Assembly: GCF_002866025.1 (NCBI RefSeq)
Contig: NZ_LNDE01000001.1
Coordinates: 496,001-560,000 of the forward strand
Direction of reading: 5' to 3'
Origin: Thermotoga sp. KOL6
GTDB taxonomy: Bacteria > Thermotogota > Thermotogae > Thermotogales > Thermotogaceae
Length of the DNA stretch: 64,000 nt
The position numbers were made by a program, and so were the translations under genes. Positions 13,381 to 54,762 of this stretch are shown in pieces. The notes beneath the pieces are model-generated. The model was not told the origin of the DNA. It saw nothing but the letters and a program-made list of their open reading frames with translations, and did not search any database. Every line of letters starts with the position of its first letter. The first letter of the stretch is position 1.

Positions 13381-13968
13381 ATGATCATAAAAGATGTGAA
13401 ATTGGTCAAAGTATCGAAAGTTCCAGGTGATTATCCCCCACCGTTGAAAGGTGAAATAGCGTTCGTGGGGAGGTCGAATGTGGGGAAATCCTCCCTGTTG
13501 AATGCTATTTTCAACAAAAAGATCGCTTTCGTCAGTAAAACTCCTGGAAAAACTCGATCAATCAATTTCTATCTTGTAAACTCGAAATATTATTTCACTG
13601 ATCTTCCAGGGTACGGGTACGCGAAGGTGTCCAAGAGAGAACGTATGTTGTGGAAAAAATTGGTAGAAGATTACTTTGTGAACAGATGGCCTCTTCAAAT
13701 GGTTTTTCTTCTGGTGGACGGTAGAATTCCCCCACAAGAAAGTGACTTTATGATGATAGAATGGATGAGAAGTCTGAACGTCCCATTCACCATCGTCCTC
13801 ACGAAGATAGACAAAGTAAAGAAATCTGAGAGAAAAAAGAAGCTAGAAGAACACAAAGAAGCGTTCTCGAGATACGGTGGCTATACGGTAATTCCTACTT
13901 CGTCCGTAACTGGCGAGGGCATAGATGTTCTCTTGGGTTTGATTTCCACTCTTTTAAAAGGGAATTGA
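13381..13968 (+). CDS. engB: Ribosome-biogenesis GTPase EngB/YsxC (YihA)
   Basis: A GTPase needed for large-subunit maturation. 195 residues with G1 GRSNVGKS (residues 30-37), G2 around [11 protein letters not shown]3 [10 protein letters not shown]4 TKIDK and G5-like [11 protein letters not shown] 13381 has AAGGGTGAT just upstream and the usual family N-terminus. The frame to 13336 overlaps the cobO start. It heads a plus-strand run into the HD-GYP gene, across a 276-base non-coding gap. Confidence 0.95.
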
Positions 13969-13985
13969 AATTGCTAAAATAGGAT

Positions 13986-14222
13986 AGGGGCAGGGGGGAT
14001 TGAAAAGCGGAGTACCGAACAGCAAGAAATGTAGTAAGCGGAGATCCGGTAACAAGCGAAGACCTGAGATAAAGCAATGAAAGGGGGGGAAGCCATGAGA
14101 AAGCTCCTGAGGGTGGTCCTCGTTCTTGGAAGCTTGTTTGGAACCCTTCTGGCAATCGTCGGAAGCAATAGGGTTTGGTAACCTCTGATAGTCGGTTCTC
14201 GGAAAGTTTCCCCCCTGCTCCT
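13986..14222 (+). ncRNA. Candidate structured RNA closed by a 12-bp stem, upstream of the HD-GYP gene
   Basis: GGGGCAGGGGGG (13987-13998) is complementary to CCCCCCTGCTCC (14210-14221), 12 pairs with one G-U. A second run, AGGGGGGAA near 14082-14090, can pair with the same 3' strand, so two folds compete. Between them lie three irregular AAGCG-type repeats with small CGG-N4-CCG hairpins (14005, 14036, 14054) and local stems such as CTTCTG/CGGAAG. TAAAAT at 13975 could be a -10. No intrinsic terminator follows, and the ribosome site of the HD-GYP gene begins about 14 bases later. I could not match it to RNase P, tmRNA, SRP, 6S or a known riboswitch. Confidence 0.4.
14095..14181 (+). CDS. Putative 28-residue hydrophobic peptide inside the structured gap
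   Basis: ATG 14095 follows a G-rich ribosome-like site (AAGGGGGGGAAGCC). The frame encodes 28 residues and ends at TAA 14179: two basic residues, then a hydrophobic run (VVLVLGSLFGTLLAIVG), then SNRVW. It would span a membrane once. Codons (AGA, CTC, GTC, GGA) look like those of neighbouring genes. The same bases take part in the proposed RNA fold, so it may be a regulatory leader peptide, a small membrane protein or a chance frame. Confidence 0.35.
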   Translation: MRKLLRVVLVLGSLFGTLLAIVGSNRVW

Positions 14223-14244
14223 TCATATCGAAGCAAGGAGTGAA

Positions 14245-15513
14245 ATGGTGAAGAGAAGAAGAGAAAGAATCTTTCTTGTATATTCTTTGATAATTTTAAG
14301 TTTGTACATATGCTCGATTTTGACTTTTGGAACTTTAAACGTTGAGTTTCACGATTTCAGGTTTACCTTGTTTCTTTTTTTAATAAGTTTTCTCTTTGAA
14401 GTTTTGAGCATAAAAACCCTTCAATTCACTCATGGAAAAGTAGAGACATCCGCAAGCCTGATAGCAAACATAGCAGCGGTGTTCCTTTTGAACCCTTTAG
14501 AAGCTTCCCTTTTGAGTGCACTTTCTGGTATCACTTACAAATTGATCAGGATAACAAAGGAAAAGTATCCTGTGAGCCGATACATATTCAATTTCTCACA
14601 GGTGGCTTTAAGCTCCTATTTTGCAGGGATTACGTACCATACTCTGGCCGATCAAAGTGCAGTGTGGAACATCTTTGTTGTTCTAGTTTCTTCGTTGGTT
14701 TATTTTTCTTTCAACAATCTTTTTGTTCTCTTTGCTGTTTACATTCTTTCTGGAGAAGGTATCCATGAAACCATTTCGAAGGTCGTATCAGGTCCTGTCA
14801 TGAGCATGGGGCTCCTCATACCTGTGATTGCTGTTGTTTACATTCTTTATCAATACGTGGGACTTTTGGCCATTCCTGTGTCTTTGGCTGCCGTGTTGTC
14901 TATCCAAATAGGAAACTACTACAGATACAAGTACTACGAGGCAAAACTTGAGCATTTAAAGCTTCTTGCAAAGAGTTTAGAGGAGAAAGATAAATACACT
15001 CGCGGGCACAGTGAAAGAGTAGCGGAACTCGCTCGGGCAATGGCAAAAAAACTCGGTTTCTCACCGAAGATGGTGGAAAGGATTTACAATGCAGCTTTTT
15101 TACATGATATTGGAAAAATAGGGATACCCGACCACATTTTGAAAAAACCTACCATTCTTTCGAAAGAAGAAATGACGGTTGTAAAATCACACCCTGTTAT
15201 GGGAGAAGAGATTCTAGCAGAAGTGGACATCTTCAGAAATAGAGAGAGCAAATGGGTGAGGCATCATCATGAAAGATGGGATGGGACAGGCTATCCAGAC
15301 GGTCTCAAAGGAGAGGAAATCCCTCTTCAATCTAGGATAATAGCGGTTGCTGATGTGTACGAAGCTTTAACCAGCGATAGACCTTACAGAAAAGCATTAA
15401 CCAGAGACGAAGCGAAAGAAATCATGATGAAGATGAAAGGTACCGTCCTCGATCCAAAACTCGTAGACCTTCTGTTTGAAATACTCGACGAGAGGGAGGA
15501 GAAAGATCTATGA
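14245..15513 (+). CDS. Membrane-anchored HD-GYP domain protein (putative cyclic-di-GMP phosphodiesterase)
   Basis: 422 residues: about seven membrane segments in the first 235, a short linker helix, then an HD-GYP domain with LHDIGKIGIPD, the HHHERWDGTGYPDGL motif and RIIAVADVYEALTSDRPYR. HD-GYP enzymes hydrolyse cyclic di-GMP, and the complete HD and GYP motifs suggest activity. The membrane part has no ligand domain I recognise. The ATG follows AAGGAGTGAA. DUF5317 starts within its stop, and the upstream gap may carry a regulatory RNA. Confidence 0.88.
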   Translation: MVKRRRERIFLVYSLIILSLYICSILTFGTLNVEFHDFRFTLFLFLISFLFEVLSIKTLQFTHGKVETSASLIANIAAVFLLNPLEASLLSALSGITYKLIRITKEKYPVSRYIFNFSQVALSSYFAGITYHTLADQSAVWNIFVVLVSSLVYFSFNNLFVLFAVYILSGEGIHETISKVVSGPVMSMGLLIPVIAVVYILYQYVGLLAIPVSLAAVLSIQIGNYYRYKYYEAKLEHLKLLAKSLEEKDKYTRGHSERVAELARAMAKKLGFSPKMVERIYNAAFLHDIGKIGIPDHILKKPTILSKEEMTVVKSHPVMGEEILAEVDIFRNRESKWVRHHHERWDGTGYPDGLKGEEIPLQSRIIAVADVYEALTSDRPYRKALTRDEAKEIMMKMKGTVLDPKLVDLLFEILDEREEKDL

Positions 15514-16016
15514 TGATCGATGTATTTGTAATAGCGCTGATTCTCTCCCTTTTGACAAGAAATATCAAAAATGTCTTGAAGTACAAATATCGAGGACTCT
15601 ATATTTTCATATTCCCCTTCATACTCCAGCTACTTCCATGGAAAAGCTTCACCGTTCCAATTTCTTTTGTGACACTTCTAATCTTCCTAGCGTTGAACAG
15701 ACAACTTCCTGGATTCAAGCTCATGACAATTGGTGCCATTATGAATGGCTTCACTATGAGCGTTAATGGAGGTAAGATGCCAGTCTGGGAACCCACTCTT
15801 AAGCTTCTCAACTTAGGTCTCGATTTCAAACACAGTTCGTTCACGGAATTCTCCTGGCGAACTATTCTTGCCGATTATATTCCCGTGTATCTACCATGGG
15901 GAAGGAAGTTTGTCATCAGCATAGGTGATATCTTTGTGTTCGTTGGAGTTTTCATATTTTTCGTTCTAAAACCTCGATTCCAAAACCAACCGTCCCAGGT
16001 CCCACATGAGTTGTAA
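15510..16016 (+). CDS. DUF5317-type small membrane protein
   Basis: 168 residues with about five membrane segments. It carries an NGGKMPV motif (near 88) and a GDIFVFVG segment near the C-terminus, the two conserved spots I associate with DUF5317, a family of unknown function. ATG 15510 overlaps the HD-GYP stop, so the two are translationally coupled and may act together. The last 65 bases run antisense into the 3' end of the convergent degV, with no terminator between. Confidence 0.65.
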   Translation: MMIDVFVIALILSLLTRNIKNVLKYKYRGLYIFIFPFILQLLPWKSFTVPISFVTLLIFLALNRQLPGFKLMTIGAIMNGFTMSVNGGKMPVWEPTLKLLNLGLDFKHSSFTEFSWRTILADYIPVYLPWGRKFVISIGDIFVFVGVFIFFVLKPRFQNQPSQVPHEL

Positions 16017-54550: not shown

Positions 54551-54579
54551 GGTCTGAAATCTTTTTTTGATTTCAGACC
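54551..54579 (-). promoter_or_regulatory. Hairpin between lysine aptamer and terminator
   Basis: A perfect 11-bp stem GGTCTGAAATC / GATTTCAGACC with an A7 loop. Its first four bases (GGTC) also belong to the 3' strand of the aptamer P1 helix, so P1 and the base of this hairpin compete. A G/A stretch just before it could pair with part of the terminator arm. Confidence 0.7.
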
Positions 54580-54754
54580 CGACCGGCTCTCCACGGAGAG
54601 GACTCTCCGTGACAGTGGTACGGGTATTCCCCGTACCCCCAGGCGTGTAGGGTGGGAGGAACCCTACACCCTTCGGCGCCCTCGCCTTTCAACTGCCCCC
54701 TATTCCTCCCCTGAAGGGACAGTCTACTCATCTCAGGCGCTCCTCCGTCGGGTC
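54576..54754 (-). ncRNA. Lysine riboswitch aptamer (L box)
   Basis: The leader of asd on the minus strand. P1 (GACCCGAC / GTCGGGTC) closes about 179 bases with the lysine-aptamer landmarks: GCGCCTGAGATGAGTAGACTG (positions 54725-54745), AAAGGCGAGGGCGCCGAAG near 54675, a GGGGGTACGGGGAATACCCG arm and the final CACTGTCACGGAG. I recall the T. maritima asd lysine riboswitch of known structure, which this closely resembles. Lysine binding should favour the terminator downstream. Confidence 0.95.
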
Positions 54755-54762
54755 ACTATATC

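Follow-up and report, generated by a model that had tools for sequence, protein, structure and literature searches.

Comparative evidence for a membrane-miniprotein gene enclosed by a covarying long-range RNA helix upstream of MASE9-HD-GYP genes

The gap between the stop codon of engB (13968) and the start of an HD-GYP gene (14245) in Thermotoga sp. KOL6, lying within the 64,000-nt stretch of DNA analysed here (hereafter the window), was shown by comparison with relatives to contain a genuine gene whose product is a membrane miniprotein of 28 aa, and the same comparative approach showed that a long-range helix, P1, closes the leader and the miniprotein ORF into a single RNA domain ahead of HD-GYP. 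This leader belongs to an operon in which the miniprotein is followed by a MASE9-HD-GYP enzyme and then by a DUF5317 protein (Table 1). The favoured reading, to which we give roughly six chances in ten, is that a cis-regulatory leader controls a membrane miniprotein that serves as the partner of a solute-sensing c-di-GMP phosphodiesterase; the architecture, comprising the ORF, P1, a short AGCGRAG motif and their linkage, was established by comparison, and from it we infer the function. The earlier note on this DNA had proposed an undescribed structured RNA before the HD-GYP gene, a proposal borne out by the covariation of P1, by the rebuilding of its sequence between lineages and by the lack of a match in Rfam, and it had missed both the 28-codon ORF, whose Shine-Dalgarno (SD) sequence is formed by a G-run, and the extended -10 promoter TGCTAAAAT.

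Table 1. Features of the miniprotein leader and operon, in window coordinates
Feature	Position	Strand	Basis or remark
Extended -10 promoter TGCTAAAAT (TGNTAAAAT)	13972-13980	+	Promoter scan, TG before the -10; invariant in 8 relatives
P1 5' strand GGGGCAGGGGGG	13987-13998	+	
AGCGGAG motif, copy 1	14006-14012	+	
AGCGGAG motif, copy 2	14037-14043	+	
AGCGAAG motif, copy 3	14055-14061	+	
GGGGGGG, SD of the miniprotein	14083-14089	+	Strong G-rich SD also ahead of the miniprotein in relatives
28-codon ORF, transmembrane miniprotein MRKLLRVVLVLGSLFGTLLAIVGSNRVW	14095-14181	+	
P1 3' strand CCCCCCTGCTCC	14210-14221	+	
AAGGAG, SD for HD-GYP, about 14 nt 3' of P1	14235-14240	+	Sequence
MASE9 + HD-GYP protein, 422 aa, predicted membrane-bound c-di-GMP phosphodiesterase	14245-15513	+	
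DUF5317 membrane protein, the usual third operon gene	15510-16016	+	

DNA similarity to relatives ends exactly at 14181, the final base of the 28-codon ORF, and the ORF is exactly 28 codons long in all seven Thermotoga genomes (7/7) and in a sister genus. Substitution within it is strongly synonymous: the Thermotoga clade has a pN/pS of 0.27, family f2 one of 0.17, f5 one of 0.29 and a second phylum one of 0.37. These values indicate that the miniprotein is under coding selection, and the constraint spans the entire transmembrane segment. In the alignment the N-terminus is basic, Gly, Ala and Ser are abundant in the single hydrophobic segment, and a Trp stands at the C-terminus or close to it; the length varies from 20 to 36 aa across lineages, and the Trp is near-universal in the last few codons, with WW in several genera. 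A conserved short ORF with its own start, stop and SD accordingly stands upstream of a constant gene, as is characteristic of a uORF. When strict ORF criteria were applied upstream of the 57 long ORFs of the window, a single candidate passed, namely 14095-14181, and the target regions, read on 88 reverse strands as a control, gave none. Tandem miniprotein genes occur in six genomes, three copies in G008 and G039 and two in G007, G011, G031 and G033, and the copies, which are diverged or near-identical, are each provided with their own strong SD (loci L034, L035, L031, L072 and L074). Searches of Pfam and NCBIfam with every form of the miniprotein tested returned no match over the curated cut-off. 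Latif et al. described the small ORFs in their putative T. maritima ncRNAs as having no peptide evidence (PMC3636130). Other open frames of the gap were rejected: a 26-codon TTG-start ORF at 14000-14080 is not coding, its frame being lost in relatives, and the opposite-strand frames (e.g. 13954-14226) are shorter or broken in relatives. A simple pattern scan also reported a terminator-like hairpin at 14107-14129, within the miniprotein ORF, which probably arose by chance.

The miniprotein accompanies the enzyme almost without exception. MASE9-HD-GYP proteins were found at E <= 1e-20 in 42 of 103 Thermotogota genomes, and a miniprotein profile search matched 41 of these 42 directly; in the 42nd (G049) the contig starts inside the miniprotein ORF, of which the final codons VGHLRWG are visible. 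One genome outside the 42 (G030) carries a miniprotein at a contig end, and with this exception the profile search detected no miniprotein in the remaining Thermotogota genomes without MASE9; elsewhere in the 103 it gave just two weak matches, which at about E 0.01 were attributed to chance. Beyond Thermotogota, the miniprotein was present in 58 of the 60 MASE9 genomes of the second phylum, which is most likely Deinococcota, Thermus composti being a MASE9-positive control, and in all 27 loci with upstream DNA of a third phylum (that of G243). The genetically tractable Thermus thermophilus probably has the gene pair too. A plasmid of Natranaerobius (Bacillota) has the miniprotein, HD-GYP and DUF5317 genes in the same order as the window, and a tblastn search of plasmids with the miniprotein gave no match. 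DUF5317, with a conserved stretch NG..MPV, is the usual third gene after the miniprotein and the MASE9-HD-GYP enzyme, its identity being confirmed by Pfam in the window and L175 and judged by eye in L079, L081, L083, L088, L090, L187 and L204. PF20972 also gave weak matches in the two phyla to which G319 and G373 belong; these are mostly without a miniprotein under the strict criteria and were left uncounted, although G319/G539 and G373 themselves each have one. Two contigs of the second phylum (C106 of G437 and C1 of G458) have about 1.2-1.7 kb between the miniprotein and the MASE9 match, unlike their relatives, possibly through an insertion. A BLASTN match in a distant genome (L009) was dismissed as chance, no miniprotein being present there.

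The downstream gene, which the earlier note had taken for a putative c-di-GMP phosphodiesterase, indeed matches both MASE9 (Pfam PF20972, E 7.4e-44) and an HD-GYP-type HD domain over the curated cut-offs. The MASE9 region (window 14245-14925) was modelled with AlphaFold2 from 27 sequences at a mean pLDDT of 83.5. The model aligned with the S-component RibU (5kbw) with Z 14.7 over 163 residues and an rmsd of 3.0, the top 23 rows of a structure search with it were all ECF S-components or related CbiM-type proteins, and Foldseek gave an ECF S-component match at E 2.2e-3. MASE9 is predicted from this model to adopt the ECF S-component (vitamin-receptor) fold, the same as that of RibU, FolT and ThiT; in contrast to these proteins, it is fused to an HD-GYP enzyme, and the sequence identity is about 9-18%. 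A fold of this kind suggests that MASE9 enzymes may sense vitamins, metals or similar solutes.

Considering the strict co-occurrence, the operon order, the residue constraint along the full membrane segment and the tandem copies, a partnership in the membrane is proposed, in which the miniprotein would lie against the MASE9 domain and set or gate its response, and the MASE9-HD-GYP enzyme would be a c-di-GMP phosphodiesterase that senses a solute and has this small protein as its obligate partner. Tiny membrane proteins that are encoded beside larger membrane proteins and act on them are exemplified by CydX, KdpF, AcrZ and CbiN, the last working with CbiM. CbiM and the predicted MASE9 have the S-component-type fold in common, and CbiN is larger, with two transmembrane segments. 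The miniprotein differs from these small partners in that no sequence similarity to them was found and that the partner here would be a c-di-GMP phosphodiesterase.

As for the RNA, the 12-nt complementarity with one G-U pair that had been noted between the two ends of the gap is real, no dinucleotide shuffle of the same segments (0/60) pairing as well (z 6.1). P1, as this helix is called, pairs the leader's 5' end with a site 4-36 nt past the miniprotein stop codon, and in about 50 loci with unrelated sequences it brackets the leader plus the ORF. In the Thermotoga clade 95.5% of P1 cells pair, and the compensatory stem changes that the earlier note had suggested seeking among Thermotoga relatives were found: at two positions both bases have changed, turning G-C into A-U, in three sequences at one position and in one sequence at the other. 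The 14 sequences of the third phylum have double changes at five P1 pairs, with 23 cells altered on both sides, and sliding the partner lowered their pairing from 96% to 36-47%. P1 displays in this way the covariation by which a structured-leader element is recognized. Its strands are GGGGCAGGGG/CCCCUGCCCC in Thermotoga, CCUGCCGGGG/CCCCGGCAGG in g9, UGCCGGGGUGCA/UGCACCCCGGCA in g6, GGGUGCAGCACCCC/GGGGUGCUGCACCC in f8, GAUAGGUCGGUGA/UCACCGACCUAUC in f248 and AAAUGGACCGACAUCGAA/UUCGAUGUCGGUCCAUUU in G375, and the mean pairing is 13.4 nt for a lineage's own strands versus 5.1 nt when the strands are swapped between lineages. No more than one of 60 shuffles equalled P1 in 19 Thermotogota, in 26 of the 27 third-phylum loci and in five further lineages. 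Folding of the window gap as a single sequence gave a stability that is not unusual (z -0.86), so single-sequence folding was not used and the evidence for the helix is comparative.

An inverted repeat in the DNA, marking the boundary of a cassette that can move or invert, would look alike in flanking a small gene. That P1 is such a repeat is extremely improbable, however, as its retained G-U pairs are the mark of an RNA helix rather than a DNA palindrome, the unit stays at one vertically inherited site, and the strand sequences turn over between lineages with the pairing retained. The resemblance of a small hydrophobic peptide inside a long-range 5'-to-3' helix to a type I toxin-antitoxin locus, in which the paired mRNA ends would provide fold-back inhibition and an antisense RNA would be the antitoxin, is likewise very unlikely to reflect kinship: the operon position is constant beside MASE9-HD-GYP, with no scattered copies elsewhere in the genomes, the amino-acid sequence is strongly conserved across phyla, and a promoter scan of the opposite strand of the leader found no promoter-like site.

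P1 was not found in f5, f3, genera g2 and g3 or most of the second phylum; the exception is G011, in which a 14-bp helix encloses both tandem miniprotein ORFs. Lineages without P1 have the miniprotein and enzyme genes close together, or two or three tandem miniprotein genes. Across the genomes compared, the miniprotein is more widely conserved than the RNA element. Since P1 and the motif are both missing in f3, g2, g3 and most of the second phylum and the miniprotein is kept there, the RNA would not be needed everywhere for miniprotein function.

Transcription is predicted to start around 13986-13988, at the P1 5' strand, and the extended -10 element TGNTAAAAT just 5' of P1 is invariant across the Thermotoga clade; in T. 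maritima such promoters predominate, being used by 63% of transcription units (PMC3636130). The position of this start would suit a role of P1 and the motif in mRNA stability or processing only, with a closed 5' end, RNase cleavage after P1 and a stable miniprotein message exceeding the HD-GYP message, and the P1-less lineages include those with tandem miniprotein genes, an alternative route to such an excess. This explanation merits some credence, about one part in four of our expectation, but it leaves the AGCGRAG motif and P2, a hairpin beside the SD, unexplained, and in f2 P1 begins 6-10 nt past the engB stop with no clear promoter ahead.

The three irregular repeats that the earlier note had seen in the 5' part of the gap proved to be copies of AGCGRAG (Table 1). 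The motif occurs in one to four copies in P1-bearing leaders, with the near form AGCGUAG in G167, and f5 leaders have the motif and P2 in the absence of P1. Its density is 10.5/kb in the 160 nt before the miniprotein versus 0.13/kb elsewhere on the same strand, an enrichment of about 80-fold. P2 lies beside the last AGCGRAG and abuts or includes the miniprotein SD in most lineages other than Thermotoga, P2 being weak in Thermotoga itself. In the third phylum, P2 is formed by CGGUUUU/AAAACCG just 5' of GGAGG, invariant in 14 sequences, and the SD GGAGG is held in an internal loop opposite GCGAAGCG. The corresponding pairings are CCGGUC/GACUGG in G022, GUCUC/GAGAC in G016 and G018, and, across the segment from SD to start in f5, AGAUUUAC/GUAAGUCU; those of G295 (CCCACCU/AGGUGGG), G311 (CCACCUC/GAGGUGG) and Natranaerobius (GGUCUC/GAGACC) were identified by eye without a shuffle control. 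Genus g7 of the Thermotogota, which is without MASE9, has AGCGGAGCGGAG or AGCGGAGCGAAG just 5' of an rsmH-like gene and of the next gene (L173 around 770 and 1890 on the reverse strand; L174 around 59 and 1068), and an AGCGRAG-type motif may have a wider translation-initiation role in that genus.

Because this RNA is positioned over the SD, a regulatory role is suggested: P1 and the AGCGRAG/P2 region would act in cis to keep the miniprotein SD in a controlled state and would separate or protect the miniprotein cistron, with the right ratio of miniprotein to enzyme as the outcome. The short invariant motif in a covarying frame, adjoining an SD-adjacent helix, could also be read as an orphan riboswitch, in which AGCGRAG with P1 and P2 binds a small molecule, perhaps the solute of MASE9, and gates the miniprotein SD; the resemblance of MASE9 to vitamin receptors is in keeping with this. 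We regard it as unlikely, given that about seven conserved nucleotides and variable helices fall below known aptamers, that P1 is long-range with a coding region inside, that the motif copies vary from one to four, and that f5 has the motif and P2 with no P1. The c-di-GMP riboswitches GEMM-I and GEMM-II can also precede genes for c-di-GMP enzymes, but this RNA has another architecture and is without an Rfam match, the GEMM-I/II covariance models in particular giving no match in the gap and the leaders searched. The search of Rfam with covariance models, which had been suggested earlier, gave no credible match within the gap with the threshold relaxed to E 10, nor, with Rfam 15, in the other leaders searched, neighbouring tRNAs aside. 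Elsewhere in the window, a lysine riboswitch was recognized at 54575-54755 on the reverse strand (RF00168, 103.8 bits).

A riboswitch-like architecture had been claimed for the gap on another ground, namely that a second G-run, placed at 14082, takes the same 3' partner as the first and gives two exclusive folds. The run can form a 7-nt pairing with the P1 3' strand, its position being 14083-14089; the switch itself did not hold up, as the G-run is the miniprotein SD and the alternative pairing is not conserved. Within the Thermotoga clade this pairing covers 5-7 nt; elsewhere, most lineages retain 3-5 nt of it and a P1 of 10-20 bp, so that an exclusive-fold switch is not a conserved property.

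Leader peptides such as TnaC and SpeFL act while being made, and the miniprotein resembles them in length, upstream position and the Trp in the peptide. It might by analogy be a nascent-chain sensor, in which stalling of the ribosome around the final Trp codons or the stop alters P1 or P2 and hence HD-GYP expression, and the peptide has no later role. The length of 20-36 aa, the Trp or WW of the last codons and the location of the ORF directly upstream of one gene speak for it, as does the start of P1 in some lineages 4 nt past the stop, inside the footprint of a terminating ribosome. We nevertheless consider it rather improbable: unlike these leader peptides, the miniprotein is constrained in coding over its whole transmembrane segment and exists in two or three tandem copies with their own SDs in six genomes, many lineages keep the ORF but have no P1, the partner invariably has a membrane domain, and a distance of 4-36 nt between the stop and the P1 3' strand fits no single ribosome-based switch.

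The closest described leaders are the odc1 motif and other uORF candidates of GC-IGR screens, in which a structured leader with a short conserved ORF controls the choice of start site and the SD lies in a helix (PMC8632094, PMC11109978). The leader described here is also structured and includes a short conserved ORF; odc1, however, has an 11-aa peptide and its SD within P1, whereas the present locus has a transmembrane protein of 20-36 aa, P1 around the whole cistron and linkage to MASE9-HD-GYP. A search of open-access full texts turned up no paper dealing with MASE9, with a small protein encoded next to HD-GYP or with a structured RNA ahead of HD-GYP genes. The locus could already be listed as a nameless ncRNA or uORF candidate in the supplements of PMC3636130 and PMC8632094.

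These results point to an overlooked partner and an overlooked control layer, the miniprotein and the RNA recurring next to this type of enzyme in several phyla and both being such as standard gene callers, Rfam and Pfam would miss. The RNA is unusual in that a covarying helix surrounds an entire miniprotein cistron, its frame being rebuilt with unrelated sequence in many lineages. A bolder and doubtful extension of the favoured reading is a two-part module, in which the RNA (P1, AGCGRAG and P2) reads a signal and meters the miniprotein, and the S-component-like MASE9, gated by the miniprotein, binds either the same solute or a related one and controls c-di-GMP breakdown; if so, one ligand would be sensed at two levels, by RNA and by protein, in several phyla. 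Membrane-sensor HD-GYP phosphodiesterases are common. The S-component-like fold suggests that the MASE9 enzymes among them may be receptors for vitamins, metals or similar solutes, and a candidate obligate partner, unannotated and conserved across phyla, would change the inventory of components for this enzyme class and may offer a direct route to how MASE9 works.
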